Below, piece after piece: positions 3,849 to 28,031 of a stretch of 44,055 bases of DNA. Position numbers and translations under genes: made by a program. The first letter of the stretch is position 1. Each line of letters starts with the position of its first letter. Below the pieces are notes generated by a model that had not been told where the DNA came from, searched no databases, and was given only the letters and a program-made list of their open reading frames with translations. This DNA is from Puniceicoccales bacterium (GTDB lineage Bacteria > Verrucomicrobiota > Verrucomicrobiia > Opitutales > UBA953), in NCBI GenBank assembly GCA_031273045.1, contig JAISSQ010000244.1:1-44055 (forward strand). Direction: 5' to 3'.

Positions 3849-3931
3849 GTTGGGACAAGAAAGCGCCGCCGGCGCAAAGTTCCGCCTTTCGCATTTTCGC
3901 GGGAACGGTTCGCGCTAACATGCGCCGCCGC

Positions 3932-10408: not shown

Positions 10409-11265
10409 CGGCGCGGGAGGGAATGGCTCGCGGCGGCGGCGTCAAGGAGTTCGCCGAGGGCGCCGGTGTTTTCGAGGACGAGGTCGGGCGCGCCACCGGT
10501 GCCGGCGGCGGCAGCGGCGTCGGCGCGGGTCGCCTCGCCGGAGAGGACGAGGACGCCGAGGCAGCCGGCGCGTTTCGCCATCGCGATGTCGGTGTAGATG
10601 CGGTCGCCGACCATCGCGACTTCGCCGGCGCGCAGCCCGTGGCGCGCGAGGATTCCGGCGAGCATCGAGGGGTCGGGCTTGCCGAAGACGCGGTCGGGCG
10701 CGCGACCGGTGGCGGCGGTGATTGCGGCGCAGATTGAGCCGCAGTCCACGAGCACCGTCGGCGCGTCGGTCGGGCAGACGAAATCGGGGTTCGTCGCGAA
10801 GTAGGGCAGTCCCTGTTTGACCCACCACGCGGCGCGGCACAGGCGGCCGTAGGTGAGCGAGAGGTCGAAGCCGGCGATGACGGCGTCGGGGCGGTCGGCG
10901 GGGTCGTCGGCGGTCTCGGCGAACCCGCTGCCGGTGAACTCGGCGCGCATTCCGGCGGTGCCGAGCAGGAAGAGGCGGCGCAGTTCGGGGCGTTCGGCGC
11001 GGAGGAAATCGCGCAGCGCGAGCGCGGAGGTGTAGAGACGGTCGGGCGTCGCCGGCAGTCCCAGCGCGGCGAGTTTCGCGAGGTATTCGGCGGCGGACTT
11101 CGACGGGTTGTTCGTGAGGAACGTGAAGCCGATTCCGAGCGCGTCGAGCCGCGCGAGGAACGGCCGCGTCCACGGGAAGAGCGTGCCGCCGTTATAGACG
11201 GTGCCGTCGAGGTCGAGCACGACGTGGCGAATGCCGGCGAGCGATGCGAGGGTGTCGGTGTTCAT
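10405..11265 (-). CDS. HAD-superfamily phosphatase, NagD-like (class IIA)
   Basis: A 286-residue HAD hydrolase. Motif I is HVVLDLDGTVYNGG (Asp18 nucleophile, Asp20 acid), motif II lies in FTFLTNNPSKS, the lysine is in VFGKPDPSM and motif IV is AMVGDRIYTDIAMAKRAG. The large cap between motifs II and III is the C2 type of NagD and phosphoglycolate/glycerol-phosphate phosphatases, which dephosphorylate nucleotide or sugar phosphates. ATG 11265 is chosen over the track's 11889 because the domain begins here and ATGA overlaps the upstream transporter stop. Its own stop overlaps the next start in the same way. Downstream of an organophosphate transporter, it could dephosphorylate the imported substrate. 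The C-terminus carries an AAAAAGTGG insert. Confidence 0.92.
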   Translation of the reverse strand: MNTDTLASLAGIRHVVLDLDGTVYNGGTLFPWTRPFLARLDALGIGFTFLTNNPSKSAAEYLAKLAALGLPATPDRLYTSALALRDFLRAERPELRRLFLLGTAGMRAEFTGSGFAETADDPADRPDAVIAGFDLSLTYGRLCRAAWWVKQGLPYFATNPDFVCPTDAPTVLVDCGSICAAITAATGRAPDRVFGKPDPSMLAGILARHGLRAGEVAMVGDRIYTDIAMAKRAGCLGVLVLSGEATRADAAAAAGTGGAPDLVLENTGALGELLDAAAASHSLPRR

Positions 11266-12773
11266 GCGGTTTGGGGATTGGCGGCACCACCGGCGGCGTC
11301 CTCCTCCTCCGCGTATCCGGTGGCTTTGGCGTTCCACATGAGGAGGAAGACGGCGCCGCCGGCGAGGGTCATCGCGAGCATGGCGGCGTAGGTGAAGTTC
11401 CAGCCGTAGTGCTGCGCGACGTAGCCGAAGCCGATTCCCGAAAGCGCGGTGCTCGCGTAGCCGAAGATGCCCGTCAGCCCGTTGGCGGTGGCGGCGGCCT
11501 TCTTCGTCGCCTGATTCGCGGCGGCGATGCCGACGAGCGCCTGCGGTCCGTAGATGAAGAACCCGACCGCGCACAACGGCGCGAGCAACGCCCAGAACGG
11601 CGCGCCGGCGGGGATTTGCCAGAACACGAACGCGAAGACGGCGGCGCCCGCCATGCACACGACGCACGCGCGGTGGGCGCGGCCTTTGAAAAAGCGGTCG
11701 GTCGCCCAGCCGGCAACGAGCATGCCGACGACGCCGGCGACCTCGAAGAGCGCGACGAGCCAGCCGGCGTTCGCCATGTCCACGTGCTTGGACTGGCGCA
11801 GGAGCGTCGGTCCCCAGTCGAGCACCGAGAAGCGCGTCACATAGACGAAGAAGTTTCCCGCGCCGAGTAGCCAGATGAGCGGGTTGCAAAACACCTTCTC
11901 GCGCAGCAACGCGCGGTGGCGGGCGGCGTCGTCATCACCAGTGCCACCGGCGGCGTCCTTCGCGGCGGCGCGCAGTTTCACGGTGGTTCCGGGCAGTTCG
12001 GGGAGGCCGACGGACGCGGGCGTGTCGCGCAGCAAAAACAGCAGCGCGATTGCGCCGCAGAACGCGATGGACGCCGGCAGCCAGAAGCACCACCGCCACG
12101 CGCCGGCGTGCGTCACGGGGTCGCCGAGGTTGCCCATGATGTAGCCGCACAGGATGACGACGAGACCGGCGCCGATGGAGTGCGAGGTGTTCCAGACGGA
12201 CATCTTGGTCGCGAGTTCGCGCGGCGGGACCCAGTGCGTGAGCAGCCGCGCGCACGGCGGGAAGCCGCTGCCTTGCAGGAAGCCGTTCACGAGCCACGTG
12301 ACGCCCATGAAGCCGATGAGCGTCGCGCCGACGCGCGCGCCGGCAACGGACGCGGCATCGCCGCCGGCGGTGACGGCACCGGTGGCACCGGCGGCGGTGG
12401 TGCCGGCGAGCCAAGCGGCGATTTCCGGCGCGAAGCCGAACACGGCGTTGGAGAGCGCGCACAGTGCCAGTCCCGCGCTCATGTGGACGCGCGCGTTGAA
12501 GCGGTCGGCGAGGAAGCCGTTCGCGAAGCGCGACAGCCCGTAAACGAGCCCGTTGGCGGTGAGGAACGCACCGAGGGCGGTCTTCTTGATGCCGAGGTCC
12601 GCCTCAATCCCCGGCATCGCCATGCTGAAATTTTTGCGGACGAAGTAGAACAGCGCGTAGCCGAGCATCGTCGCCAGAATCGTCCGCAACTGCCACCGGC
12701 GGAACCGCGCGCCGGCGGTGTCGCCTTCGGTGGCGCGCGGGGAGTCGTTCGTGGCGTGGGCGGGAGGAGGCAT
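11262..12773 (-). CDS. Organophosphate transporter of the OPA family (GlpT/UhpT-like MFS)
   Basis: A 503-residue inner-membrane antiporter of the OPA branch of the MFS, which exchanges glycerol-3-phosphate or hexose phosphates for phosphate. The diagnostic opening LATMLGYALFYFVRKNFSMAMPG is close to GlpT/UhpC TM1, followed by a KTALGAFLTANGLVYGLSRF segment and FLADRFNARV. FIYGPQALVGIAAANQATKKAAATANGLTGI matches the TM10-11 region. Inserts rich in Ala/Gly/Thr (AGTTAAGATGAVTAGG; AAGGTGDDDAA) lie in loops and are encoded by accggcggc-type repeats. The gene begins 10 bp after the autotransporter stop and ends with an ATGA overlap into the HAD phosphatase. The substrate cannot be decided between glycerol-phosphate and sugar-phosphate. 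Confidence 0.92.
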   Translation of the reverse strand: MPPPAHATNDSPRATEGDTAGARFRRWQLRTILATMLGYALFYFVRKNFSMAMPGIEADLGIKKTALGAFLTANGLVYGLSRFANGFLADRFNARVHMSAGLALCALSNAVFGFAPEIAAWLAGTTAAGATGAVTAGGDAASVAGARVGATLIGFMGVTWLVNGFLQGSGFPPCARLLTHWVPPRELATKMSVWNTSHSIGAGLVVILCGYIMGNLGDPVTHAGAWRWCFWLPASIAFCGAIALLFLLRDTPASVGLPELPGTTVKLRAAAKDAAGGTGDDDAARHRALLREKVFCNPLIWLLGAGNFFVYVTRFSVLDWGPTLLRQSKHVDMANAGWLVALFEVAGVVGMLVAGWATDRFFKGRAHRACVVCMAGAAVFAFVFWQIPAGAPFWALLAPLCAVGFFIYGPQALVGIAAANQATKKAAATANGLTGIFGYASTALSGIGFGYVAQHYGWNFTYAAMLAMTLAGGAVFLLMWNAKATGYAEEEDAAGGAANPQTA

Positions 12774-12783
12774 TCGCGGGCGG

Positions 12784-15700
12784 TCAGAACCGGATGCGGA
12801 AGGAGGCGTTGAAGCGGTGGATTGTGAGGGAGCCGAAGTCGGTCTCGTAGGTGTAGCCGATGTTGAGGGACTTGTTGCCGCCGAAGGTGAGTTCGACGCG
12901 CGGACCGGCTTGGAGGGTGTGCTCGGGCAGGGCGGGCGCGGTGATGCGGAAGGAGTTGCCGGAGGTGTCGTTCGCGAAGCGCGCGGTGATGGAGGCGTCG
13001 GTGTCGAGCATTTCGACGGTGTAGGCGACCTCGCAACCGAGGCGCAGGACGGCGCCGCTCCACGGGTTGATGAGCCAATTCAGACCGCTGCCGATGCGGA
13101 TTTGGAGCGAGTCCTGCGTGATTTCGTCGAGGTGCATGGCGGCGGCGGAACCCTTCTCGGAGAAGTTGCTGACGGTTGCGGAGACGTAGTCGAAGCCGGC
13201 GAAGGGCGTGAAACTGATGAATTTCGGGAGTGGGATGACGCTGCCGACGTAGAGGCCGGCACCGATGTCGGTGCCTTCGGGCTTCGCCGTCTTGCCGCCG
13301 AAGACGTCGTGTCCGCGCGTCTCGTAGGAGGAGTATCCGCCGTGGAACTGGGCGTCGAAGAAGAGCCAGTTGCTGGCGCGCAGGGAGGCGTAGAGCGTTC
13401 CGCGAATGTTTTCGCTGGTCGCCTTGTCGCCGTTGGAACCGCTGTGGAAGCGGGCGCGGGCGTTGTTGTAGCCGACGTTCGCGCCGAGGGTGAAGTGGGT
13501 GCCAAGGTCGGAGTCGAAGCCGACGAGCGCGCCGTAGGAGTCGATGTCGAACGCGGGGTCGTTCGCGCCCGGATTTTCGTATTTGGCGTAGGCACCGGTG
13601 CCGACGATGTAGGGTGCCCAGTTGATGGTGGTGTTCTGGACGCCGCGTTCGTAGCGCAGGGCTTCGAGGTGCTCGCGCAGCGAGGAAGCCGCGTCGTGCG
13701 CGGCGGAGATGCTCATCGTCGGCAGTGCGGCATGCATGCTGGGGACGGTGGACTTGAACGCCTCGCCGGCGGTGCTGGCGTCGCTGCCGAGCAATTGGTA
13801 GATGGTCTCGCGGGCGGCGGCGGCACCCGGATTGGAGGACTTCAGGACGGTGTTGAGGTAGCGGGTGAAGTCGGAGAGCGAGTCGGGCAGGTCGAAGCCG
13901 GGGACGTCGCTCAGGTCGTCGGCGAAGATGACGGCGACGCCGTTGCCGGTCTTGTAGAAGAAGAACTTGCCGATGATTCCGAGGGCTTCGAGTTCGTTGT
14001 AGTTGCCGATGGTGTAGTTGCCGGCGATGGAGGGTTTGCCGTCAGCGGTGTTGTCATCAATGAAGAGTTCGAAGGTGGTGCCGGTGGCGGGCAGGTTGGT
14101 GTCGGCGGAGCCGAGTTCGGAGAAGTCGAGCGAGATGGTGGCGCCGGGCTCGAAGGTGACTGTGCCCGTGTAGTGGACGGCGTCGGAGATGTAGCCGCTG
14201 TCCGAGTAGTGCGTGGGGGTGGAGTAGGTGACCTTGAAGCCGACGTCGCCGGCGGTGGTGATGTCGCCGTTGACGGTGATTTTCCCGACGGGCGTTGTGT
14301 TGGAGAAGACGCTGGCACCGGCGGCGACGACGAGGTTGCCCGCGACGGTTCCCTGACCGGAGAGCAGGGAGTTGCGCGCGAGCGAGATGGTCTTTACGCG
14401 GATGAGCGTGTCCGCCTCGGCACCCAGCGAGAGGGACGCCCACGACTGGACTTCGAGCACGTTGAGCGAGGAGGAGGAGCCGCCGGCGACGAATTCGTAG
14501 GCGGCGTAGGCGCCGGCGAGCACGGTCTCGTTCGGGGCGAGCGAGATGATGCCGGTGCCGCGAATGCTGTCGCCGATTTGGAACGCGGGCGTGGTCACGC
14601 CGGCCTGAACGGGGACGGCGCCGTGGCGCAGTTCGAGCACGCCGGAGCCGGTGGCTTCGAGGTAGGCGTAGCCGTTGGTGTCGTAGGTGGCGGGGTCGCG
14701 CAGCGGCAGCGGCAGGTTCGCGGTGTCAATGATGAGGCGGCCTTCCTCGACGATGGTGCCGCCGGTGTGCTCCGAGACGCTGTCGAAGACGATTTCGCCC
14801 GGACCGCGTTTGACGATGTTGCCCTGTCCTTTGACGGTGACCTTGGAACCGGTGGTGACGCCGGTGCCGTCGCGGTTGAAGATGAGTTCGGCGTTGCGGA
14901 AGAGGAAGACCTCGACGGGGTTGATTTCGACGGCGTTGATGGCGCCGGAGTGGCCGCCGGAGCCGATTTGCAGTTTGGCGACATTGGCGGCGCTGGTGTC
15001 GCCGGTGTTGTTGCCGACGTAGATGTGGCCGGCGATGGCGTTGCTCTCGGTGAGCGTGACGAGGCCGCGCTCGACGGTGAGGAACGCGCCGGAGTCGGCG
15101 GTGATTTTCGACGAGACGACGGTGCCCAGCGCGTCGCCCGCCACGTAGGGTTTGCTGAAGCGGAAGTGGCCGCCGTTGTTGATTTGGATTTGCGCGCCGC
15201 CGGCGATGGTGCCCTTCGCGTCGCTGCCGTTGCCGAGTTGGAGAATGCCGGAGTTGACGACGATTGTGCCGTTGATGGAGATGTCGCCGGTGATGATGGC
15301 GAGCGAGGAGGGCGAGGTGCCGTTGACGGTGATGCTGGCGCCGACGCCGGAGACGTTCGCGCCGAGGTCGAGGTAGTGGTCGCGCGGTTCGGTGCCGGCG
15401 GGGGCGTCGCCCGGAACGAGGCGCAGTTCGCTGTTGGTGACGACGATGTTCGAGGCGGAGTAGGTCTTGGTGCGGGTCATCTCGGAGCCGTCCCAGATTT
15501 GGAACACGCCGTTCGAGATGTTGGTGATGCCGGTGGAGAGGTTGTCGCCGGTGAAGATGAGGCGACCCGGGTCGAGTTTCTGCAGTTCGCCGTCGCCGCT
15601 GATTTTGTTGGCGATGGTGTAGGTGCTGTCCCCGCAGTCGAAGATGAGCGCGCGGTTGTGCTCGCCGCCGTTGTCGTCGTCGCTGCCGAAGCGGATTTCG

Positions 15701-18700
15701 GCGTCGCCGAGAACGTTTCCGCCGTTGAGCACGTTCTGTCCGTCGCCGATGCGGATGGAGCCGTTGAGGATTTGGACGGTGCCGTGGATTTCGGGGTTCT
15801 CGGTGGTGAAGACGAGGGCGTTGGTGTTGTCCTTCGCGATGGTGCCGTAGGAGAGAATCTTGTAGTCGAAGATTTGTTTTTCGACGCGGTCGCCGTTGAA
15901 GAGCAGGGTGCCGTTTTGCTCAATCACGACGTCGTAGCCGCCGTTGGGCAGGGCGCCGACGGCGTATTGGGTGAAGGTGGTCGGGTTCGCGAAGGCGTCG
16001 AAAACGCCCGGATTGACGGCGTTCTCGTAGGTGCCGGCGACGATGACCGGCTTGGGCGCGTCGGTGCCGGTGTCAATCGAGTAGATGCTTCCGTCCGCCG
16101 CGTTGACTTGGACGCCGGTGACGCCGCGGTAGTTGCCGCCGCCGTCGGCATAGACGCCGAACGCCTTGACGCGTCCGATTGAACCTTCGGCGAGACCGGA
16201 GCCGACTTGGAGGGTGCCGTTGCGGATGATGGTGCCGCCGGTGTAGGCGTTGCGCTCGGAGCCGAGTTTGAGCGCGATGTTCGCGGTGGAGTCGTCAATG
16301 ACGAGGGAGATCTTCGCGCCCGCCGCACCGTCGGTGATGTAGCCGTAAAAGACGCCGGCGGCGGTGGCACCGGTGGTCGAGACGCCGTCCTTGCCGACGA
16401 CGAGTTGGATGGCGCCCGGAACGTCGCTGCTCACGACGGGGGTGTTCGGTCCGGCGGCGGTGCCGGAAGCGCCGCCCGCGAGCGAGCCGATGCGCACGGC
16501 GCCGCCGAGGGTTCCGGCGGCTTTGTAGCGGTCGAACACGGTTTCGCCGACGGTGCCGTTGCGGTCGAGGTCAATCTTGAGGGTCGTCCTGTCGGCGAGG
16601 GAGAAGTTGGCGGAGCCGAAGTTGGCGATGATGACGCCGCCGATTGTGGCGGTCTTATAGTTCGTCACCGTCTCTCCGTTTTCATCGGTATAAACGGACA
16701 TCACCACCGGCAGTCCGTTGTTCTCGGAGTGGGCGTTCTTGTTCTTCTTCGCGCGGAGGAGTTTCTCGAACGCGCTGTCCCAAACGGGACCGAGCCAGAC
16801 CTTGCCGTCCTCGGAGACGGCGCTGGCGGAGCGGACGATGACTTCGTCGTCCATCTTCGCGATTTGGGTCGCCGCGCCGTATTGCGTCGGGTCGAGCGCG
16901 GCGGCGGAGCCGAGGGCGGGCAGGCGGGCGATTTGGTCACCGGTGGCGCCGATGGCGACGCTGCCGGAGTCAACGCGGATGGTTCCCTCGAAGCGGCTCA
17001 CGTCGTCGCTCTCGTCGCCGGTGGCGTAGTTGCCTTCCTGCGTGAGGCGGGTGTTGGCGGCGAGGAAGAGCGTGTCGGTGTATCCGAGCGAGGGGTCGTT
17101 GTGGGTGGTGCCGTCCTTGATGAGGGTTCCGCGGTCGCCGCTGCCGGTGCTGTAGAGCAGACCGGTGATGCGCATGTCGCCGCCGGAGGTGTCGAAGGTG
17201 CCGGTGCCGCCGGAGAAAAAGTTGAAATCGTAGTCGAGGTAGCGCGGTGTGCCGGAGATGAGGGTGCCGCCGTAGAAGTCCACGCGGCCGGCGCGGACGT
17301 TGACGTCGGAGGAGGTGTCGCGCCGGCGGTTGAGGCCGAGGGCGAGGTCGGTTCCGAGGTAGATTGTGCCGTCGTAGATGATTGTGCCGCCGGCGTATTC
17401 GTTGTCGGCGAGCAGGTTGAGGACACCGGTGCCGCTCTTGACGAGGTAGCCGGTGGAGCCGCTCATGGGGCCGCTGTCGGCGGTGATGGTGTAGTCGCGC
17501 CCGATGCTGTTGTCGAAGCGCGCCTCGCCGAGGGTGACGCCTTCGGGGACGATTGTGACGAGGCGGCGCAGCGGGTCGCTGACTTGGTCGTCAAAGATGG
17601 CGGTGTCTCCGGGCGCGTAGGAGGTCTTTCCGACGCGCGAGATGGTGCCGTCGGGGTTCACGACCTCTTGGAAGAAGTTGGCACCGGTGGAGGCGGGGTC
17701 GCCCCACTGCTGGTTGGGGTCGCCGACCCAGTAGAGTTCGTTGCCGTAGGCGGTGGCATAGACGTCCATGTAAATCATCTTCCCGGCGGCGTCGTCGCGG
17801 AAGAGGATGGTGTAGCGCGGGTCGGTGAACTTGGACTGGTCCCAGCGGAACTCGACGAAGGAGTTGAGGATGGCGAGGCGTTCGGCGGCGTCGGCGGCGT
17901 CGGCGAATCCGTCCACATAGAGGGTGTTGTATTTGATGACTGGGTAGGAGACGGGAGTGTCGCCGGTGCCTTTTGCGAGGCGGTATCCGGCGCGCTCGTC
18001 GTCGCTGGATGGCATTACGGGGGAGATGATGAGTTCGCCGCCGATGGAGAGGTTTGTGACGACGAGGAGGTCGTTGGTCTGCGGGATGCGGGCGATGAGG
18101 GTTTCGCGGAGGGCGATTTCATCAGAGGTGAGCGTCGCGGGGTCGCGGGCGAGGAACTGCCGCTCGTCATAGGTGAGCGTGGAGGAGTTGAGGTTGGGGT
18201 CAACGGTCGAGGCGAAGGTGAACAGGATGGTCGAGGACGGGACGCCGACTTCGGTGCCGGCGGCGTTCTTGACGGAGGCGACGGTGGAGAGGGTGCCGTC
18301 AATGGTGAGCGTGGCGGCGCGGTCCACGACGATAATTTGGTTTCCGACGGGTTCGCCGGTGTAGGAGTCAATGATTGGCTCGGTGCCTTGGGAGCCGCCG
18401 ATATACAGGACGCCGCCCTGCAACTGGAAGTCGCCGATGAGGTCGGGCAGGGCGTCGTAAACGCCGGTGGTGAGGGTTCTGCCGGCGACGAGCGTGGAGC
18501 GGTTCAGGTAGTCCTCGCCGGAGATGGTGAAGTATTTCGGCGAGGCGGTGCCGCCGGCGTTGGAGCGCAGCAGGGAGACGTCGAGCACGGGGCGGTTCAC
18601 CTCGGAGACGGGCGCGTTCAGCCCCGGGTCAACGAAGATGTATTCGGACAGGAGCGAGGTGACGCGGCCGCCGAGGCGCAGGGTGCCTTCCTTGACGAGG

Positions 18701-21700
18701 GTGTTGCCGGTGTGCACGTCGCGTCCGCTCAACGTGAGGGTGCCGCCGCCGGTCTTGGCGAGGGTGAACTGGGAGAGCGATTTGCTGGCGGAGTAGGGGT
18801 CTCCGATGGAACCGGAGAAGGAGCGGTCGGCATTGCGGACGATGTTGAAGGTGAGGACGGAGTAGTTCTGCGGGTCTTCGACGAGCGGGCCGCCGTTGAC
18901 GATGCGGTTGAGGACGGCGGTGGTGGGGTCGGTGTCGAGCACCTCGAAGTTGCTCAACGTCTGGTTGATGCCGGTGGATGTGCCGAGGGAGAGGATGCCG
19001 TAGGGTTTGCGACCGGTTTCGGGGTCAACCGCGCTGGCACCAAAGACGATTTTGGAGGCGGAGTGGATGGCGTCGGTGATGGCGAGGCGCAACGTTCCTT
19101 CAACGAGCAGGGTGTCGCCGGTGTAAGTGTTCTTGGCGCCGAGAATCCATTCGCCGGTGCCGGTCTTTTTGAGCGTGGTGCGCTTGCGTCCGGTGGAGTC
19201 CGGCGGGTTCGGGAGGATGAAGCCGAGGATGTTCGAGTTGGTGTAACTCGTGGTTTTGCGGTCGCCGGTGAGTTCGAGGGTGACGGTCTGGACCGCCGAA
19301 CTCAGGTCAATCTGGATGATGAAGTTTTGTCCGGCGGGAGAGGTGAACTGCAGACCGCCGCCGGAGGTGACGGGGCGTCCGGGGTTCGAGTAGGAACTTT
19401 CGATAATCGCGCCGCCGTCGCCGATGGTGAAAAGGCGTTGGAAGACGGAATTGTTGACCGTCACCGTCCCGGACGGTTCGTAGGTGCTTTTGAGGCGGGC
19501 ACCGCCGGAGATGTAGAGTTTGCTGGCTTGACCGTCATTGCCCGGGGTCGGGTCGCCCAGAACGCCGGAGGTGGCTGTATAGGTGAGCGGCGCGGTGAGG
19601 ATGAGGGTGCCGGCAAGGATGCGCGTGGCACCGGTGTAGTTGCTGGCGGCACCGCCGAGGGTGAACTCGCCAAGACCGGTCTTCACGATGGAGATGTTCG
19701 CGTCGTAGGCGCCAGTATCTATCGGGTTGATGATGTTGTAGCCCTCCGTGACGGCGACGCCGGAGGTATTGGTGTCCCGCAGGTCGCGCGCCTCATCGTA
19801 GATTTCCTCGTTCACGCCGAGGAAGGCGGTGCCGAAATTGGTGAGGCGGCCGATGGTTCCGCTGAAGATGTTGTAGTTTTCCTTTCCTTCCGGCCAATCG
19901 GGGATGGTGGTTGTCGCGGGGTCGCTGTCGTAGAGCGCGATGTCGAGGTAGAGGGTGCCGGTGATGGAGTTTTCCGTGCCGGCGATGTCGCTCATGTCGG
20001 CGTGATACGTCGTGTGGGCGTGCGCGATGTGGCTGTAGGAGTCGCCGGAGAGGAAGTGCAGGGTCTGGCGGGTGCCGTCCACGAGGGTCAGCGCGCCGGC
20101 GGAGAGGGTCAGCGCGGTGGATTGCGCGCCGCGCGTGGCAAGTTGCTCGGCGGAGAGCGGGGTGCTGGCGTAGTGCTGCAACGGCTTCGCCTGCGGGATG
20201 ATGTTCGTGACCGCGACGGCGTCCTTCGCGCGCAAAATCAGGTTGCCGTATTGGCGGACGCGGATGCCGCCGGGGACGTCGAGGGTCTTCACGCCGTTCT
20301 GACCGGCGGTGTCTTGGTCGTTGGCGTGGATATAGACGAACGCGCCGTCAATGATGAGTTGCCCGGAACCGTCGGTGTAAGTGCCGTCCGAGTTCTTCTG
20401 GCTGGCGGAGAGTTGGATGACCGGCGCCGCGCCGCGAAACACGAAGAGCGAGGAGGGGGCGTTGCCGTTGCCGAAGGACTCGGAGGTGTCCACGAAGGCG
20501 TCGTCCGGCAGGTTGTTTCTCGGCACCGTGTCCACGCGCCGGATGGTGAGGTCGCCAAGACCGGTGACGCGCACGATTTCCATGTTCGCGTAGGCACCGA
20601 TGGTCGCCGAGCCGAGGAGGCGGACATCGCTCACTCGAGGCAGATTCTCGGCGAGGTAAATGTCGGCACCGTCCTCCACCAAATACTCCAAATCAAGGAG
20701 ACCGAGGACGGTGAAGTCGTTGAGGTAGCCGGCACCGAGCAGGTTGGAGAGCGCGCCCGCCTTCTCCGTGCGCTCGCGGACGCGCGACCCGGCATTATTC
20801 ATGCCATAAACGTCAATGCTCACGCCGTCGCCTTTGATTTCGATGGGGGCCGTGATGTCGTTATTGCGGATGTCGAAGGTGCTGCCGGCGGCGGTGGAAG
20901 TGCCGGAGGAAGAGGGGCGGACGGTGATTCGGCTGGTGCTGCCGACGGGGTTTGTCGAATTGCCAAGCAGCGAGACGCGCCCTTGCTCGACAAGCAACTG
21001 CCCGTCGAAATTCGAGCCGTCTTCGAGTTCGAGGTAGAACGCGCCGGTGCCGGTCTTGAGGACGCCTATTTTCGCGCCGTTGGTGTTGGACAGCGTGCCG
21101 TAAAAGTAGAAATTCCGCGTCCCCTCGCCGAGGGTCAGCCAACTGGATGTCTCCGCCGCCGGCTCGTCGCCGCCACCGCCGGCACTGATGTTGTCATAGA
21201 CGGTGCCGCCGCCGATGAGCGCGTTCATCGAAACGCTCGTGCCGTTGATGTTCAGTTCGGCACCCGTCGCGACGGAAACATAGGAGGACGCCTTGCTCGT
21301 GCCGTGCGGAATGGCCTCCGTGTTGTCCACGACCACGCGCCCTTGGCTGATGAGAAGCGGACCGTTGAAGGAGTTCGCGCCGGCGAGGACGAGCACGCCG
21401 TAGCCGGTCTTGGTGACGCCGGCGGTCGAAGAGGTCGAGGGGGTGATGGAGCCGTTGATGATGAACGCCATCGTGTCGGTCTCACCGTTCCAGATTGAGG
21501 CGCCGCCCATCCGGTCCTCGGGAATGGCGTTCAGCGTCGGCGAGACGCGCAGCGTCAGCGAGACGTTTCCAAGCAGGATGCCGCGATTGGCGTGCAGCGA
21601 GACGTGCGTGTCCTGATACGTGATGCCGTTGAACTTCACGTTCGACAGGACGGGCGCAGAGGAGGAGCCGGTGCTGGACGTGGGGGTGTTGACGTAGATG

Positions 21701-24700
21701 TTGTCCGCATCCACTTCCGACGGCTCGGCACCGAGCGACCGGTCACCGGCAATGCCGAGGAAGCCGGATTCGAGGCGCGTGCCGCCGCTGAACGTGTTGT
21801 TCGCCTCATTCAGGAACCATGCGCCGGTGCCGGTGGACGCGCCGTTGACGGTGCCGGGGAAGAGCGTGTTGTTGTCCAATGTCGCGCTCTTGATGAGGGT
21901 CAGCACCCCGTTTTCGGGGTCATTCAGGGTGAGCGAGAGAATGCCGCCTTCGATGTTGCCGGACTGGAACGTCGCATAACCGACACTGCCGGCGTTCTGA
22001 CCGGCGGCACCATAAAGGTAAATCTCACGGTTGCCGCTGCCGGCGAACTCAACAGCGCGGTCCTTGTTCGAGAACCACACACGACCGTCCGCGATTTCCA
22101 GATAGTATTTCTGCACACCGGCGGCGTCGCCCGACGAACCGGGCAAGCCGAGCGTGAAGTTGCGGTTCGTCATGATGTTCACCGACGGCACCGACGCCAC
22201 CGGCGTGTCGAGCGGTGTGCCGGTGGTGAAATCCTGCGCGCTCTGGCGGATGCGCAGGCGCGTGCCGCTCGCCAGAACAAGCCAGTCCGAGGGAGCGGTG
22301 GCGGCGGCGGCGTTGATTTCCGCCTGCGTCGCGGTGTCGGCAAGCAGGGCGACACCACCGGTGCCGAGTGCCGAGGGCTGCCCGAAATTCGTCAGCAACG
22401 GGCGGATGCGCACTTCGGCTCCGGGATCGTTCCAGTCCGCGGGAACGGGGCTGCCCTCGGCGTCCAGCGCGCCAATCCATTCGCCCGGAACGCCGCCGTC
22501 GTCGAGGTCGAGTGTGTTTTTCTCAACGATTGTTTTGCCGGTGAAGGTGTGCGCGCCGGAGATTTGCAGAATGCCGGAGTCGGTTTTGCGAATGCCGGCG
22601 ACACCGGCGATGCGCCCGTTGTAGTAATTCTGGCTGTAACGGTAGTCAAAGACGCCGTCGGGCTCGTTCTCCCCCACATCCGCCGTGCCGTCGGTGTATT
22701 CGATGGTGAGATTGAGTTTTGACGGCGTGATTTGCGTGACGCCTTCGGAGCCGGTGATGGTGATTTGGCGCGGCTTGACCTCGCCGCTGACGTTGGCGAC
22801 CACCGAGGAACCGTTGGTCTGGAAAATCACCGAGTCGTAGTTGTAGAAGCCGTCGTAAATGGGGGTGCCGGTGACGGAATTCAGCCCCGCCGTGTTGTCC
22901 TGCCAGAAGAGGTCGCCGTCGGTTTCCTCAACGCGCCAGAGTTGCGGCGTCTCGTTGCGCCAGACGAGTTCGTGGTTGCCGGGACCGTTCACCGCAAGGG
23001 AGACGGTTTTCTGCGCGGCACTGTAGGCGAGCGAAAGCGAGGTGATGCCGCGCGGGGTCTCCTCCGACGAAAGGGTCTGACTCTCGTAACCGGCAACGGT
23101 GGTGACGACGCCGGTCAGGGTGTCGGTGTAGGAGAACGTGAGCCGCTGCAGCACGGTGTTGGTGGAGCCGGCGGTGGCGGCGTCGTCGAGCGTCGAAGTG
23201 CTCCAAGTCAGCACGGGGAACGAGACGGTGCCGCCAACCTCCGCCGCGCCGGGGACGCCGCTGGGGAAGGCAAAGTCGAGGTTCAGCGCGCCGGCGGCGT
23301 CGGGCACGACGAGGTTGCGCACGAGCAGGTAGCCGTGGCGGGCGAGGCGGACGTCGTTGTCGTCAACCTCCACCGCCGGCGCGTTCACAGCGAAGCGCAA
23401 CGAGCCGCCGGGGACCGCCACCGCGCCGTCGGTCACGAGCGTCTCGCCGGCACCGCGAATGGTCAGCGTGCCGTCAATGGCGAGTCCGTAGCGCGAGGAC
23501 GAGGTGGTGTCGCCGACGGCGAGCAGGTGGTTGTTCGACAGGGCGATGTCGCCGTAAATGGTCGGTTCATCGAGGGAGACGGTTCCGCCGTCCGCGAGCA
23601 GGACTCCGGCGCGCGAGACGTAGTCCTCGTTGTTGCGACCGGTGAGGGCGGGCGAATTGTCCACGCGCAGTTCGAGCGTGTGCGTCGCGTCCTCGGCGTA
23701 GCGCAGGTCGAGTTGTCCGCCCGACTCGATGACGAGCGAGGAGGTCTGCGGGCGGATGAAGCCGCGCAACGGGGTGTAGGTGGTCGTGACGCCGGCAGCG
23801 TCAGTGCCGCTGATGGCGTCCGAGACGTTCAAGATGCTCGTTTGGGTCGTCACGGTGACCGCGCCGGGGTCTTCCTCCGTCCCTGCCGGTGTCCTGACTT
23901 CGACCTGATAGAGGGCGGTCTCCGGCGTGAGCGCGACGTAGCCGGTCTGCGGGTTCGCCCCGGTGATTTCCGAAGGCAGAATCAGCGGCGCGCCAAAAAT
24001 CAGCGTGCCCAGCGCGACGGTGGTGCGTCCGGTGTAGGACGCCGAGGCGAGCGCGAACTGCCCCAGTCCCTGCTTGGTGAAATTGCCCGCGCCGAAAACG
24101 TCCTGCCGGAAGTATTCGACGACGTTCATGTAGGCGGGCAGCGGCGGGTCGGCGAGCGACGCGATGGACGCGGGCTCGGTGCCCCATTTCGCGAAGAAGT
24201 CCTCGCGGTGGATTTCGAGCGTGGCGTTCGCGCGCACCTCGAACGATTTCAGGTTGTCGCCAAGGTCAACGCCGTCGGTGAGTTTGAGCGTGCCGGACTG
24301 GACGACGGTGCCGCCTTTGTAGTCGAGATTGCCGCCGAGGGTGAGCACGCCGTCGCCGGTTTTGACGAGGTTGAGCAGGCCGTCAATGCGCCCGCTGTAT
24401 TCGCTGTTCACGCCGGCGTAGGAGCCGTCGGAAAGCAGACGCGAACTGTTGATGGTGAGGGTGACGAGGGCGTCCTGCAGGAGCGGGTCGGTGGTCTCGT
24501 AGTAGATGCGCCCGCTGCCGTTGCCGGAGAGCGGTCCGATGGCTTCGGAGTGGCCGTTCATGTTGAGGACGCCGCCATCGAGCGTCACCGGCGCGGTGTC
24601 GTAAATCTGGTCCTCGCCGCTGCCGGCGAGGATGACCGTGCTCGGACCGGAGGTGTCCGCGACGACGGTCAGTCCACCGGCACCGACGGCGTAGGTGTCC

Positions 24701-26454
24701 GTCTTGTTGAGCAGGACGGTGTTGCCGCCTTCGACGCGGATGCCGGCACCGAGGTTCGGCTCGGAGCCGAACAACTCCACGGTGTAGGGCGCGCTCGTCG
24801 TCTGGCGCGTGAAGCGGAGCACGCCGCCGGCACCGATGATGTCGGCGGTGCCGCCCGTCCCGTAGGCGTCACCGGCGGCGGTAACGGGCACGCCGCTGTA
24901 GAAGATGCCGTTGACGGTGCCGCTCATCGCGGTCGCCTCCGGCAGGACGAGCGAGACGACGCGCTCAATCGAGTAGGTGACGGCGGCGGTGCCGGAACCG
25001 CCCGGCGCGTTGAACGTGGCGACGCCGGAGGCGGGAACGTTGATGGTCAGACCGTGGCGCAGTTGTTCGGGGTCGCCGTCGGCGTTGGTCAGCGCGCGGT
25101 TCGCCGCCTTCTCGTTCTCGGTCAGGCCGAGGGTGTGCGAGTAGGCGTTGTAGTCGGTGCCGGTGTCGCGCGCGGGGTCGTAGGCGAGCGTGGCACCGGG
25201 GAAGAGGGAGAGGACGCGCCACTTCGCGGGGTCGCTGCCGGTGCTCGATGCGCCGAGCGAGGAGACGTTGCGCACGTCAATCTTGCCGGTGTCGGCGTTC
25301 GCGGGAGTGTTCGGATATTTGTAGGTGAGCCAGCCCTCACGCACGACGATGTCGCCGGTGAACGCGCTGTTGTCGCCGGTGAGCAGCGAGGGGTCGTCGT
25401 AGTGCCCGTCGGTCATGCCGGCGGGGTCGAGGCGTCCGGTGAGGATGAGGTTCGCGGAGCCGCGCTTGTAGAGGACGCCGTCGCCTTTGAGTGTCGCCGC
25501 GAGGGTGACGGTGCTGGTGGCGGCGCCTCGGAAAATGTCGAGCGCGGGGTGCGCGATGGCGTCGCCCAGAAGCAGGTGCCCGCTGGTTCCCGAAGAACCG
25601 CCGTTGCCGGTGACCGGTGCGTCGTCGCGCCACAGGGTGATGGTCTGCACGCCGGAGAGGTTGCCCTCGGTGCTGCCGGTGCCGACTTGCAGCGTCGCGC
25701 GCGGGAAAATCTCAATGCTGCCGGTGAAGCGCGAGGTGTCGCCGGTGAAAATCAGCCGGCTGAACGCGCCAATCCAGAACGTGGGCGGAGTGCCGCTCGT
25801 CGGTATCGGGTCGGCGCGAAACGCCAGACCGATGGAAAGGGTGTGGTCGCCAATGCCTTCCAACGAAACGAGCGAGCCGGAAATCGTGCCGATGTTGTTC
25901 GTGATATTGCCGCCGCCGACGCCGCTAATCGCCGTAATCCGCGCGTCCCCAAGCAGGGTCACGGTTCCGGTGACGGTGGCGTTGTTCGTGATTTGCAGCG
26001 CGCCGAAAATGCGGTCACCGGTGGCGGCGGTGCTCTCCACGTAGCCGTTGCCGAGAATGAAAAAATTGTTTCCCGCAACATCGCCGTCGCGGACAAGCGC
26101 CGTGGTTTCAGGGTTCACGCCGGCATAAACCAGCGAATCGTCCGCATAAAAATCGTAGCCCCAAATCTCGCGGTCATTGCCCCCGCTGGCAATCGTTCCG
26201 GTGACAACATGGGCTTCGGCGGGAATGGTGTGCGTGACACTCCACGGCGAGCCGTCGGAATTTGCGCCGGTAAGGGTAATCGTGTTGCCGGCGACGACGG
26301 CACCGGCGGCGCTCGGAGCAACGGGGAAAACACTGGCGGCGGCGGCACCAAGGCCGAGGGAGGCGGCGGCGGCGAGAAGGAGTTTGCGCGCGGGGCGGCG
26401 CGACGGGGTTTCCGGCTTGGCTTGGCGGGGGAAAACGAGGGAGGACTTTTTCAT
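12784..26454 (-). CDS. Giant autotransporter with beta-strand repeats (4556 residues)
   Basis: A type V-secreted surface protein. It has an extended signal peptide (basic N-region, then KLLLAAAASLGLGAAAASVFPV), a passenger of about 4200 residues predicted as a long beta-helix, and a C-terminal beta-barrel of about 278 residues (encoded near 12784-13620) ending in the outer-membrane motif RIRF. The passenger contains about 14-15 recognisable autotransporter-associated beta-strand repeats of the form KTGxGxLxLxGxNxYxGGTxVxxGTL; examples are VKTGDGVLTLGGNLDYKGGT, LKKTGTGEWILGAKNTYTGD and VKSGTGVLNLLADNEYAGGT. Roles in such proteins include adhesion and polysaccharide binding; the ligand here is unknown. 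The frame is intact throughout. A 204-bp leader separates it from rsfS, and the OPA transporter follows 10 bp downstream. No protease active site was recognised. Confidence 0.96.
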   Translation of the reverse strand: MKKSSLVFPRQAKPETPSRRPARKLLLAAAASLGLGAAAASVFPVAPSAAGAVVAGNTITLTGANSDGSPWSVTHTIPAEAHVVTGTIASGGNDREIWGYDFYADDSLVYAGVNPETTALVRDGDVAGNNFFILGNGYVESTAATGDRIFGALQITNNATVTGTVTLLGDARITAISGVGGGNITNNIGTISGSLVSLEGIGDHTLSIGLAFRADPIPTSGTPPTFWIGAFSRLIFTGDTSRFTGSIEIFPRATLQVGTGSTEGNLSGVQTITLWRDDAPVTGNGGSSGTSGHLLLGDAIAHPALDIFRGAATSTVTLAATLKGDGVLYKRGSANLILTGRLDPAGMTDGHYDDPSLLTGDNSAFTGDIVVREGWLTYKYPNTPANADTGKIDVRNVSSLGASSTGSDPAKWRVLSLFPGATLAYDPARDTGTDYNAYSHTLGLTENEKAANRALTNADGDPEQLRHGLTINVPASGVATFNAPGGSGTAAVTYSIERVVSLVLPEATAMSGTVNGIFYSGVPVTAAGDAYGTGGTADIIGAGGVLRFTRQTTSAPYTVELFGSEPNLGAGIRVEGGNTVLLNKTDTYAVGAGGLTVVADTSGPSTVILAGSGEDQIYDTAPVTLDGGVLNMNGHSEAIGPLSGNGSGRIYYETTDPLLQDALVTLTINSSRLLSDGSYAGVNSEYSGRIDGLLNLVKTGDGVLTLGGNLDYKGGTVVQSGTLKLTDGVDLGDNLKSFEVRANATLEIHREDFFAKWGTEPASIASLADPPLPAYMNVVEYFRQDVFGAGNFTKQGLGQFALASASYTGRTTVALGTLIFGAPLILPSEITGANPQTGYVALTPETALYQVEVRTPAGTEEDPGAVTVTTQTSILNVSDAISGTDAAGVTTTYTPLRGFIRPQTSSLVIESGGQLDLRYAEDATHTLELRVDNSPALTGRNNEDYVSRAGVLLADGGTVSLDEPTIYGDIALSNNHLLAVGDTTSSSRYGLAIDGTLTIRGAGETLVTDGAVAVPGGSLRFAVNAPAVEVDDNDVRLARHGYLLVRNLVVPDAAGALNLDFAFPSGVPGAAEVGGTVSFPVLTWSTSTLDDAATAGSTNTVLQRLTFSYTDTLTGVVTTVAGYESQTLSSEETPRGITSLSLAYSAAQKTVSLAVNGPGNHELVWRNETPQLWRVEETDGDLFWQDNTAGLNSVTGTPIYDGFYNYDSVIFQTNGSSVVANVSGEVKPRQITITGSEGVTQITPSKLNLTIEYTDGTADVGENEPDGVFDYRYSQNYYNGRIAGVAGIRKTDSGILQISGAHTFTGKTIVEKNTLDLDDGGVPGEWIGALDAEGSPVPADWNDPGAEVRIRPLLTNFGQPSALGTGGVALLADTATQAEINAAAATAPSDWLVLASGTRLRIRQSAQDFTTGTPLDTPVASVPSVNIMTNRNFTLGLPGSSGDAAGVQKYYLEIADGRVWFSNKDRAVEFAGSGNREIYLYGAAGQNAGSVGYATFQSGNIEGGILSLTLNDPENGVLTLIKSATLDNNTLFPGTVNGASTGTGAWFLNEANNTFSGGTRLESGFLGIAGDRSLGAEPSEVDADNIYVNTPTSSTGSSSAPVLSNVKFNGITYQDTHVSLHANRGILLGNVSLTLRVSPTLNAIPEDRMGGASIWNGETDTMAFIINGSITPSTSSTAGVTKTGYGVLVLAGANSFNGPLLISQGRVVVDNTEAIPHGTSKASSYVSVATGAELNINGTSVSMNALIGGGTVYDNISAGGGGDEPAAETSSWLTLGEGTRNFYFYGTLSNTNGAKIGVLKTGTGAFYLELEDGSNFDGQLLVEQGRVSLLGNSTNPVGSTSRITVRPSSSGTSTAAGSTFDIRNNDITAPIEIKGDGVSIDVYGMNNAGSRVRERTEKAGALSNLLGAGYLNDFTVLGLLDLEYLVEDGADIYLAENLPRVSDVRLLGSATIGAYANMEIVRVTGLGDLTIRRVDTVPRNNLPDDAFVDTSESFGNGNAPSSLFVFRGAAPVIQLSASQKNSDGTYTDGSGQLIIDGAFVYIHANDQDTAGQNGVKTLDVPGGIRVRQYGNLILRAKDAVAVTNIIPQAKPLQHYASTPLSAEQLATRGAQSTALTLSAGALTLVDGTRQTLHFLSGDSYSHIAHAHTTYHADMSDIAGTENSITGTLYLDIALYDSDPATTTIPDWPEGKENYNIFSGTIGRLTNFGTAFLGVNEEIYDEARDLRDTNTSGVAVTEGYNIINPIDTGAYDANISIVKTGLGEFTLGGAASNYTGATRILAGTLILTAPLTYTATSGVLGDPTPGNDGQASKLYISGGARLKSTYEPSGTVTVNNSVFQRLFTIGDGGAIIESSYSNPGRPVTSGGGLQFTSPAGQNFIIQIDLSSAVQTVTLELTGDRKTTSYTNSNILGFILPNPPDSTGRKRTTLKKTGTGEWILGAKNTYTGDTLLVEGTLRLAITDAIHSASKIVFGASAVDPETGRKPYGILSLGTSTGINQTLSNFEVLDTDPTTAVLNRIVNGGPLVEDPQNYSVLTFNIVRNADRSFSGSIGDPYSASKSLSQFTLAKTGGGTLTLSGRDVHTGNTLVKEGTLRLGGRVTSLLSEYIFVDPGLNAPVSEVNRPVLDVSLLRSNAGGTASPKYFTISGEDYLNRSTLVAGRTLTTGVYDALPDLIGDFQLQGGVLYIGGSQGTEPIIDSYTGEPVGNQIIVVDRAATLTIDGTLSTVASVKNAAGTEVGVPSSTILFTFASTVDPNLNSSTLTYDERQFLARDPATLTSDEIALRETLIARIPQTNDLLVVTNLSIGGELIISPVMPSSDDERAGYRLAKGTGDTPVSYPVIKYNTLYVDGFADAADAAERLAILNSFVEFRWDQSKFTDPRYTILFRDDAAGKMIYMDVYATAYGNELYWVGDPNQQWGDPASTGANFFQEVVNPDGTISRVGKTSYAPGDTAIFDDQVSDPLRRLVTIVPEGVTLGEARFDNSIGRDYTITADSGPMSGSTGYLVKSGTGVLNLLADNEYAGGTIIYDGTIYLGTDLALGLNRRRDTSSDVNVRAGRVDFYGGTLISGTPRYLDYDFNFFSGGTGTFDTSGGDMRITGLLYSTGSGDRGTLIKDGTTHNDPSLGYTDTLFLAANTRLTQEGNYATGDESDDVSRFEGTIRVDSGSVAIGATGDQIARLPALGSAAALDPTQYGAATQIAKMDDEVIVRSASAVSEDGKVWLGPVWDSAFEKLLRAKKNKNAHSENNGLPVVMSVYTDENGETVTNYKTATIGGVIIANFGSANFSLADRTTLKIDLDRNGTVGETVFDRYKAAGTLGGAVRIGSLAGGASGTAAGPNTPVVSSDVPGAIQLVVGKDGVSTTGATAAGVFYGYITDGAAGAKISLVIDDSTANIALKLGSERNAYTGGTIIRNGTLQVGSGLAEGSIGRVKAFGVYADGGGNYRGVTGVQVNAADGSIYSIDTGTDAPKPVIVAGTYENAVNPGVFDAFANPTTFTQYAVGALPNGGYDVVIEQNGTLLFNGDRVEKQIFDYKILSYGTIAKDNTNALVFTTENPEIHGTVQILNGSIRIGDGQNVLNGGNVLGDAEIRFGSDDDNGGEHNRALIFDCGDSTYTIANKISGDGELQKLDPGRLIFTGDNLSTGITNISNGVFQIWDGSEMTRTKTYSASNIVVTNSELRLVPGDAPAGTEPRDHYLDLGANVSGVGASITVNGTSPSSLAIITGDISINGTIVVNSGILQLGNGSDAKGTIAGGAQIQINNGGHFRFSKPYVAGDALGTVVSSKITADSGAFLTVERGLVTLTESNAIAGHIYVGNNTGDTSAANVAKLQIGSGGHSGAINAVEINPVEVFLFRNAELIFNRDGTGVTTGSKVTVKGQGNIVKRGPGEIVFDSVSEHTGGTIVEEGRLIIDTANLPLPLRDPATYDTNGYAYLEATGSGVLELRHGAVPVQAGVTTPAFQIGDSIRGTGIISLAPNETVLAGAYAAYEFVAGGSSSSLNVLEVQSWASLSLGAEADTLIRVKTISLARNSLLSGQGTVAGNLVVAAGASVFSNTTPVGKITVNGDITTAGDVGFKVTYSTPTHYSDSGYISDAVHYTGTVTFEPGATISLDFSELGSADTNLPATGTTFELFIDDNTADGKPSIAGNYTIGNYNELEALGIIGKFFFYKTGNGVAVIFADDLSDVPGFDLPDSLSDFTRYLNTVLKSSNPGAAAARETIYQLLGSDASTAGEAFKSTVPSMHAALPTMSISAAHDAASSLREHLEALRYERGVQNTTINWAPYIVGTGAYAKYENPGANDPAFDIDSYGALVGFDSDLGTHFTLGANVGYNNARARFHSGSNGDKATSENIRGTLYASLRASNWLFFDAQFHGGYSSYETRGHDVFGGKTAKPEGTDIGAGLYVGSVIPLPKFISFTPFAGFDYVSATVSNFSEKGSAAAMHLDEITQDSLQIRIGSGLNWLINPWSGAVLRLGCEVAYTVEMLDTDASITARFANDTSGNSFRITAPALPEHTLQAGPRVELTFGGNKSLNIGYTYETDFGSLTIHRFNASFRIRF

Positions 26455-26658: not shown

Positions 26659-27336
26659 CTACCGGCGCGCCCACAACTGCTCCAAGCGATAGTTGCTCCG
26701 TTGCGCCGGCAGGAAGAGGTGGAAAACGACATCAAAAGCGTCCACCACGCACCAGCCGCTCTCCGTCCGCCCGTCACTGCCCAAAACCACCTCCTCCATC
26801 TCCGCGAGTTCCCGCTCCAACGCCACGCGCAACGCCCGCAAGTGCGGCTCTGAAGTGCCCGTCGCAATCACCAGAAAATCCGTCACCGGCGACTTTCCGC
26901 GAACGTCCACCACGACAACGTCCTCCGCCTTCTTCTCGTCCAGTGCCCGCAGGCACCGCGAAACCAGCGGCGGATGCGCCACCTCCGGCGAAGGGCCAAC
27001 GGAGCGCGGCGACGAAGGGGCTGCCTTCTTCGGCGAAGCGTTAACGGAGCGCAGCGGAGTTAGCGACGCCGGCACCTTCGGCTCCGCCGCCGGTGCGGAC
27101 GAGGACGAAGCGCGCTTTGCCGCGCCACGCCGCTCGATGACGCCCGTGAGCAGGGACGTCCCCGCCGCGCGCCCGCGAACCTCCGAAACCGCCCGCGCCG
27201 CAATCTCCGCAAGCGTCGGCACCGCGCCGACACCACCGGCAATGCCACCGGCAGCGGCTTTTTGGGTAGCACTTTTGGGGGCGGATTTCGCGCTCGCGCT
27301 CGTCGCGGCGCGCTTTCGGGCTGGGGGGCGGCTCAT
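26659..27336 (-). CDS. rsfS: Ribosomal silencing factor RsfS with a long N-terminal extension
   Basis: RsfS (RsfA/Iojap family) binds ribosomal protein uL14 and blocks subunit joining in starvation. The domain occupies the last 105 residues: CLRALDEKKAEDVVVVDVRG, then SPVTDFLVIATGTSEPHLRAL, and GSDGRTESGWCVVDAFDVVFHLF. Before it lie about 120 residues rich in Ala, Ser, Pro and Lys, absent from typical RsfS (105-130 residues). I choose ATG 27336 because it overlaps the nadD stop as ATGA; an internal start cannot be excluded. The extension includes two copies of an approximately 27-bp sequence, giving the repeated peptide RSVxxSP. The nadD-rsfS order is a widespread bacterial arrangement. Confidence 0.92.
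   Translation of the reverse strand: MSRPPARKRAATSASAKSAPKSATQKAAAGGIAGGVGAVPTLAEIAARAVSEVRGRAAGTSLLTGVIERRGAAKRASSSSAPAAEPKVPASLTPLRSVNASPKKAAPSSPRSVGPSPEVAHPPLVSRCLRALDEKKAEDVVVVDVRGKSPVTDFLVIATGTSEPHLRALRVALERELAEMEEVVLGSDGRTESGWCVVDAFDVVFHLFLPAQRSNYRLEQLWARR
26986..27057. repeat. Two-copy 27-bp direct repeat inside rsfS
   Basis: CGGCGAAG-N4-AACGGAGCGC followed by RGCG occurs at 26986-27012 and 27031-27057. The copies are 45 bp apart start to start, so they stay in frame in rsfS and yield RSVGPSP and RSVNASP. The sequence is unlike the surrounding codon pattern and looks like a dispersed repeat captured by the coding region. Confidence 0.6.
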
Positions 27337-28031
27337 GAGTAAAGGTTGCGCTGTTGAATGATTTTGCGGACGCCAGCGGGCAAGAACAATTCCAGCGACA
27401 GCCCGCGCCGCGCGCGCTCGCGCACCTCGGTCGAACTGATATCCACCCGCCGCTCCGGCAACCAAACCACCACCGGCGACACCGAACCGCTGCCGGCACC
27501 GCCACCGGCGGCACCGACGGCATCACCACCGGCGGTTATCCCTCCGTCCACTGCGGCGCAGCCGCCACTACTTCCCCATTCCCCATTCCCCATTCCCCAT
27601 TCCCCTTGGAGCGAAGCGGCTCTCCGCCCTGCCACCGCGAACCGCACCAACTTTGCGAGTTCCTCGGCGCGGTGCCACCGGTGCAGTTGCGCCGCTTGGT
27701 CGGCACCGACGAGCCAGAACAATTCCGCCTCCGGTCCGAACCGCCGGCGAAGATGGGTCGCCGTGTCGAACGAAAAACTCAGCCCGCCGCGCCGCACCTC
27801 GAAGTCCTCGACTTCGAGCCACGGGAACTCCGCCGCCGCCGCCCGCGCCAGTTCAAGCCGCGCCGCCGCCGGTGCCACCGCCTCGCGCCCTTTCAGCGGC
27901 GACGCCGCCGCCGGCACTAACAGCACCAAGTCCAGCGCAAGGTGCTCGCGCGCGTCCTGCGCCAGAAACAGGTGCCCCGCGTGCGGCGGGTCAAACGTCC
28001 CGCCCAAAATGCCCACGCGATGCGGATTCAT
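27333..28031 (-). CDS. nadD: Nicotinate-nucleotide adenylyltransferase
   Basis: NadD adenylates nicotinate mononucleotide in NAD synthesis. The nucleotidyltransferase signature GILGGTFDPPHAGH (His17, His20) opens the protein; LFWLVGADQAAQLHRW and DISSTEVRERA (the ISSTxxR motif) complete the fold. At 232 residues it is longer than usual (190-215) because about 48 extra residues (139-186) lie between FAVAGRR and VVVWLPERRVD. The insert is made of a heptanucleotide tandem repeat (reading GEWGMGNGEWG) followed by a Gly/Ala run from RCCGGY-type repeats. Start and stop overlap the neighbouring genes by ATGA on both sides, so all three genes should be translated together. Confidence 0.94.
   Translation of the reverse strand: MNPHRVGILGGTFDPPHAGHLFLAQDAREHLALDLVLLVPAAASPLKGREAVAPAAARLELARAAAAEFPWLEVEDFEVRRGGLSFSFDTATHLRRRFGPEAELFWLVGADQAAQLHRWHRAEELAKLVRFAVAGRRAASLQGEWGMGNGEWGSSGGCAAVDGGITAGGDAVGAAGGGAGSGSVSPVVVWLPERRVDISSTEVRERARRGLSLELFLPAGVRKIIQQRNLYS
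27574..27605. repeat. Heptanucleotide tandem repeat (CCCCATT)n in nadD
   Basis: Four full CCCCATT units (27574-27601) plus a CCCC remainder. On the coding strand this is (AATGGGG)n, read through as GEWGMGNGEWG. Because the unit is 7 bp, gain or loss of one copy would change the nadD reading frame. Confidence 0.95.

Follow-up and report, generated by a model that had tools for sequence, protein, structure and literature searches.

Repeats of the PATR kind were described by Doyle et al. (2015), as cited in PMC8111173, and the BmaA, BmaB and BmaC orthologues of Brucella differ in size and in PATR number (PMC8111173). The largest autotransporter in a 2012 survey was BigE, with 10,429 aa (PMC3419190). 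Our literature search on autotransporters of the Opitutales found nothing on point. The gene described here, from a Puniceicoccales bacterium of that order, extends the PATR autotransporters by a long and intact representative from a gut lineage that has received little study. It lies in the window, by which we mean the whole 44,055-nucleotide stretch analysed (contig JAISSQ010000244.1), directly ahead of a gene for an OPA-type transporter (Table 1). We consider it likely that the gene encodes a type Va autotransporter of the PATR kind, probably an adhesin-like fibre, and that the transporter belongs to a separate OPA-HAD-lipoprotein unit without a shared function.

Results

An intact autotransporter with strongly diverged repeats

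The autotransporter frame begins with ATG and runs for 4556 codons without an internal stop (gene calls in this analysis combine open frames and base composition, with no gene finder). In 200 shuffles of the same 13.7 kb, the longest open frame had a mean of 284 aa and a maximum of 454; because the shuffles reach 454 codons at most, a frame of 4556 codons is not due to chance. Judged by eye from the translation, the N-terminus, MKKSSLVFPRQAKPETPSRRPARKLLLAAAASLGLGAAAASVFPVAPSAAGA, is a long signal-peptide-like sequence. The PF03797 barrel spans residues 4287-4535 of 4556 (133 bits), the C-terminal residue is the aromatic F, and the barrel profile matches the structure of the EstA autotransporter (3kvn, E 3.4e-8). 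The preliminary description had proposed an intact 4556-residue autotransporter, and the uninterrupted frame, signal-like N-terminus and barrel bear this out. The region preceding the barrel is conserved in nine proteins; together with the barrel, residues 3500-4286 are about 30-39% identical over 1000-1100 aa to the proteins of genus mates. With G at 12.4%, T at 10.3% and two cysteines among its 4556 residues, the protein has a composition that would agree with export and a beta-strand architecture. The autotransporter had no Pfam match of the pectin-lyase-like or pertactin kind, and Pfam, NCBIfam and solved-structure searches detected no enzyme domain in the passenger. When the whole protein was searched against solved structures, there was no match and no solved passenger. 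AlphaFold run without alignment (single sequence) gave a pLDDT of about 30 for residues 2201-2700 and 3901-4556, too low to inform on the fold.

Table 1. Features of the window around the autotransporter gene (positions are those of the window).
Feature	Position	Strand	Basis or remark
Lipoprotein-like protein, D-lyxose ketol-isomerase-like cupin region	9608..10408	-	PDB 2y0o, E 1.9e-8
HAD-IIA phosphatase	10405..11265	-	Start overlaps transporter stop by 4 bp; usual partner of transporter elsewhere
OPA-type MFS transporter (GlpT/UhpT/SLC37A4-like)	11262..12773	-	NCBIfam models, solved relatives
Gap between autotransporter stop and transporter ATG, 10 bases	12774..12783	-	Coordinates
Autotransporter, classical type Va architecture, 4556 aa	12784..26454	-	ORF and domain matches; collinear homologues
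PF03797 beta-barrel translocator, protein end NASFRIRF	12850..13596	-	Profile match
Passenger C-terminal part, residues 3500-4286	13597..15957	-	With barrel, best conserved part in genus mates
PATR/TIGR02601 repeats 11-12	15496-15585, 14728-14820	-	Above cut-off
PATR/TIGR02601 repeats 8-10	18670-18765, 17353-17445, 16201-16266	-	Above cut-off
PATR/TIGR02601 repeats 5-7	21328-21420, 19597-19692, 19084-19167	-	Above cut-off
PATR/TIGR02601 repeats 2-4	23992-24084, 22504-22596, 21760-21834	-	Above cut-off
PATR/TIGR02601 repeat 1 of 12 above cut-off	24280..24372	-	Profile match
Signal-peptide-like N-terminus, residues 1-50: basic stretch, then LLLAAAASLGLGAAAASVFPVA, then SAAGA	26305..26454	-	Translation, by eye
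rsfS, domain at ORF residues 171-265	26659..27465	-	Domain match; 204 bases upstream of autotransporter
nadD, upstream of rsfS	27333-28031		Domain match
PD-(D/E)XK nuclease family transposase-like protein (PF12784)	41223-42254		125 bits

The PATR assignment was well above threshold (PF12951, 180 bits with a cut-off of 27; TIGR02601, 198 bits with a cut-off of 19.85). Twelve TIGR02601 repeats exceeded the cut-off, six PATR stretches were individually significant in the whole-protein scan, and a home-made PATR profile gave 14 stretches when weak matches were included; the earlier estimate of about 15 repeats is therefore fair. The repeats are strongly diverged, with hardly any tandem repeat left in the DNA. 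This divergence, which had been read as a sign of old duplication, is real, but it tells little about the age of the repeats.

Homologues in the genus and the autotransporter load of the genome

Full-length collinear homologues were found in genus mates G001 (3773 aa), G002 (3545 aa), G003 (3624 aa) and G004 (3656 aa), and a partial homologue in G005, so that at least five of the eight genus mates possess one. Identity in these five was 35-39% over the last ~1050 residues and 24-36% further up. The window protein is ~800-1000 residues longer than its genus-mate homologues, and because they measure 3545-3773 aa against 4556, length has not been held constant, contrary to the selection on length that had been suggested. 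None of the homologous autotransporters was followed by the transporter; where the genes behind them were readable, their products looked, by reading of the sequence, like seryl-tRNA synthetase, 3-dehydroquinase, a pseudouridine synthase or a HAD-like hydrolase. Genus mate G004 also encodes a 2238-residue PATR-like protein (L114:5848-12561) that ends in a PEP-CTERM-like anchor (IPEPSTYGLLSGLGLLGLLAYRHRRRK) and has no barrel.

The best relatives within the same genome (C74, C212, C57 and C198) matched mainly through the last 350-1150 residues. This genome, a 3.1-Mb draft of 247 contigs that is 84% complete, contained 24 PF03797 matches in about 23 places, and the barrel-bearing frames totalled ~88,000 residues, a slightly high figure since frames were taken from stop to stop. 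The longest barrel-bearing frame, at G000:C160:3-40652 (+) (loci L130-L132), has 13,549 residues and contains PATR repeats; its 5' side is cut by the contig end, so the real length exceeds this value. Barrel frames with a start and a signal-like region were also present at G000:C132:760-32523 (+) (10,587 residues) and G000:C207:3706-34332 (-) (10,208 residues). Within its own genome, the window autotransporter is thus of medium size. Barrels occurred in 68 of 79 genomes of the family, with the highest count in the window's genus. The larger point is a genomic one, namely that three autotransporter frames exceed 10,000 residues and that barrel-bearing frames take up ~8.5% of the genome; the reason for which a small gut bacterium maintains so many giant surface proteins is a testable question.

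The transporter and its partner genes

The transporter was matched best by TIGR00881 (307 bits), and its top six NCBIfam models were all OPA (PgtP, GlpT, UhpC, UhpT). Solved relatives were GlpT (1pw4, the best, E 1.4e-65) and SLC37A4, and the start position agrees with homologues. All curated equivalog cut-offs were missed (GlpT, 291 of 633 bits; PgtP, 173 of 750; UhpT, 158 of 497), so the substrate is not nameable from a model match. The transporter and HAD-IIA phosphatase form a two-gene unit that is kept, without an autotransporter, in many Bacteroidota and Opitutaceae (loci L009-L088). Some transporter-HAD loci have an Fe-ADH_2 dehydrogenase in front. The neighbours of the transporter in L010 are a dehydrogenase of the Fe-ADH_2 kind and a sugar-binding regulator; those in L073 are a GDPD lipoprotein and an S1/P1 nuclease; in L047 they look, by reading of the sequence, like glpABC. 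The dehydrogenase, GDPD lipoprotein, nuclease and glpABC neighbours point to glycerol-phosphate-like substrates.

In the window, the HAD phosphatase gene shares 4 bp with the lipoprotein gene. The lipoprotein had no Pfam or NCBIfam match, and it was rejected as a member of the transporter cassette on finding that it does not lie beside the transporter in other loci. Most of its relatives (38-48%) come from a single further family of the order.

The transporter was absent from all eight genus mates, and among 70 other family genomes only two encoded it at E < 1e-40, with 35-36% identity; in the tree it was nested among gut Opitutaceae sequences. CarB of the window was 84% identical to that of two same-genus genomes, 68-72% to that of termite-gut Opitutaceae and Ereboglobus, and 42-47% to that of Bacteroidia, values that place the host among Opitutales-like Verrucomicrobiota. 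The absence from genus mates and the grouping with gut Opitutaceae would fit gain by transfer, with repeated loss in the genus mates as a possible alternative. The transporter-HAD unit seems to move between phyla in guts.

The junction and its upstream side

The autotransporter stop TGA (12784-12786) and the transporter ATG (12773) lie on the same strand and 10 bp apart, as the preliminary description had stated. No Shine-Dalgarno-like GGAGG was seen within the gap. A strong terminator or promoter between the genes, which had been named as evidence against co-expression, was looked for at the junction and none was seen: the coding strand had no terminator-like site above shuffles, the sole terminator-like match was on the opposite strand inside the transporter, RNA folding at the junction was no better than in shuffles (z = +0.8), and a sigma-70 consensus scan, which covers the host's phylum poorly, revealed no promoter-like site. 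Between rsfS and the autotransporter there was likewise no promoter-like site, and terminator-like sites were as in shuffles. In genus mate G005, the position immediately behind rsfS, where the window has its autotransporter, is taken by a different large PATR passenger (L113:3-4172). The rsfS-autotransporter arrangement was considered as the ancestral order and rejected, the G005 passenger being ~26% similar in parts and not a collinear homologue.

These observations leave room for regulatory coupling alone, in which an acquired transporter would use the autotransporter promoter by read-through with no shared substrate. The 10-bp gap and the lack of a promoter-like site at the junction favour this idea, but sigma-70 scans are poorly suited to the phylum and a promoter within the 3' end of the autotransporter gene is possible; we give it an even chance. 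Such coupling is a refinement of our preferred reading, an autotransporter next to a functionally separate unit, and not its opposite.

We regard it as very improbable that the junction is an assembly chimera. The draft nature of the genome, with its many contigs, and the absence of the pairing from every other genome of the genus would agree with a chimera, but the contig is continuous, base composition does not break across the junction, and both frames are intact up to it.

Spacing and linkage of autotransporter and transporter genes elsewhere

Among 20 other barrel loci of the window genome, 10 have a Pfam-recognised co-directional gene 17-84 bp after the stop: BacA (17 bp), GLF (21), TatD (24), MlaD (36), QueC (45), VWA (50), thioredoxin (60), aldo-keto reductase (66), CydB (73) and AAA ATPase (84). 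A contig end interrupts an eleventh close downstream gene, which lies 8 bp behind. With unrelated genes so placed behind half of the other autotransporters, a 10-bp gap is normal packing, and the special standing given to it in the preliminary description falls away. Tight spacing behind autotransporter genes is often mere packing, and the transporter looks like a chance neighbour of the autotransporter rather than a partner.

When transporter loci were searched with the barrel profile, one of 80 (L036) had an autotransporter immediately upstream of the transporter; some of the 80 have little upstream DNA. None of 20 further transporter loci of the order had one, and a few of these 20 repeat genes already counted among the 80. 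In L036 (2942-11377), from the termite Opitutaceae MAG Ct408_bin80, a PATR/pertactin-type autotransporter lies 147 bp upstream of an OPA transporter. That transporter is 60% identical to the one in the window, and a second barrel frame lies just before the L036 autotransporter. As in the window, the L036 autotransporter is of the PATR kind and immediately precedes the OPA transporter, with both on one strand; the L036 pair differs in the wider gap, in a pertactin-like passenger of another kind, and in having no HAD gene behind. The autotransporter-OPA pairing has therefore occurred at least twice. We think it very unlikely that gut Opitutales repeatedly put a giant PATR autotransporter before an OPA transporter, as in the window and L036, and that the pair works as a unit for surface binding and import; one L036-type case in about 100 loci, in autotransporter-rich genomes, is weak support for a module.

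Discussion

The co-expression proposed in the preliminary description holds in part, in that read-through is possible with neither terminator nor promoter seen at the junction; its further step, a module of surface capture and uptake, is not supported, the linkage not being kept. In such a module, the autotransporter would bind or degrade, at the cell surface, a polymer that carries phosphate; the OPA transporter would import the ester so released, and one transcript would encode both proteins. The common strand, the short gap without a terminator, the tight downstream unit indicated by overlapping HAD and lipoprotein genes, and the second instance of pairing in L036 all speak for it. Set against these are the rarity of the linkage in other OPA loci, the usual presence of tight unrelated neighbours behind autotransporters of this genome, the lack of a detected enzyme domain in the passenger, and the different partners of the OPA transporter elsewhere (dehydrogenase, GDPD lipoprotein, nuclease or, by reading, glpABC). 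Because the transporter is absent from eight genus mates and the linkage is rare elsewhere, the module is unsupported, and we rate it as highly doubtful.

We favour instead two neighbouring systems. The autotransporter would be exported by Sec through its extended signal peptide, its C-terminal barrel would insert in the outer membrane, and a repetitive beta-strand passenger of roughly 4200 residues would be displayed, probably acting as a long adhesin-like surface fibre or as a spacer fibre. By analogy with the family, the passenger may adopt a beta-helix fold, serve in adhesion and be retained at the surface. The OPA transporter, HAD phosphatase and lipoprotein genes would constitute a metabolic unit of their own, closely packed and of the glycerol-phosphate type. 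Gut Opitutaceae are its probable source, and the unit would have landed in its present position or drifted there. Transcription may plausibly read through to some degree from the autotransporter gene into the transporter gene, without the two sharing a function.

Among known systems, the window transporter is like GlpT, UhpT and PgtP in its family models and unlike them in missing each cut-off. The autotransporter shares with BmaA, BmaB and BmaC of Brucella several PATR repeats and a C-terminal barrel, and its N-terminus resembles a signal peptide as theirs does, but it belongs to the Opitutales, its passenger is without a pectin-lyase-like or pertactin Pfam match, and it has about three times the length of BmaB (1593 aa). 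Like BigE, it places a very long passenger, probably of beta-strands, before one barrel; whereas the BigE passenger consists of eightfold copies of one domain, the window repeats are strongly diverged. The window protein is less than half as long as BigE; two frames of the same genome match BigE in size and the C160 frame exceeds it.
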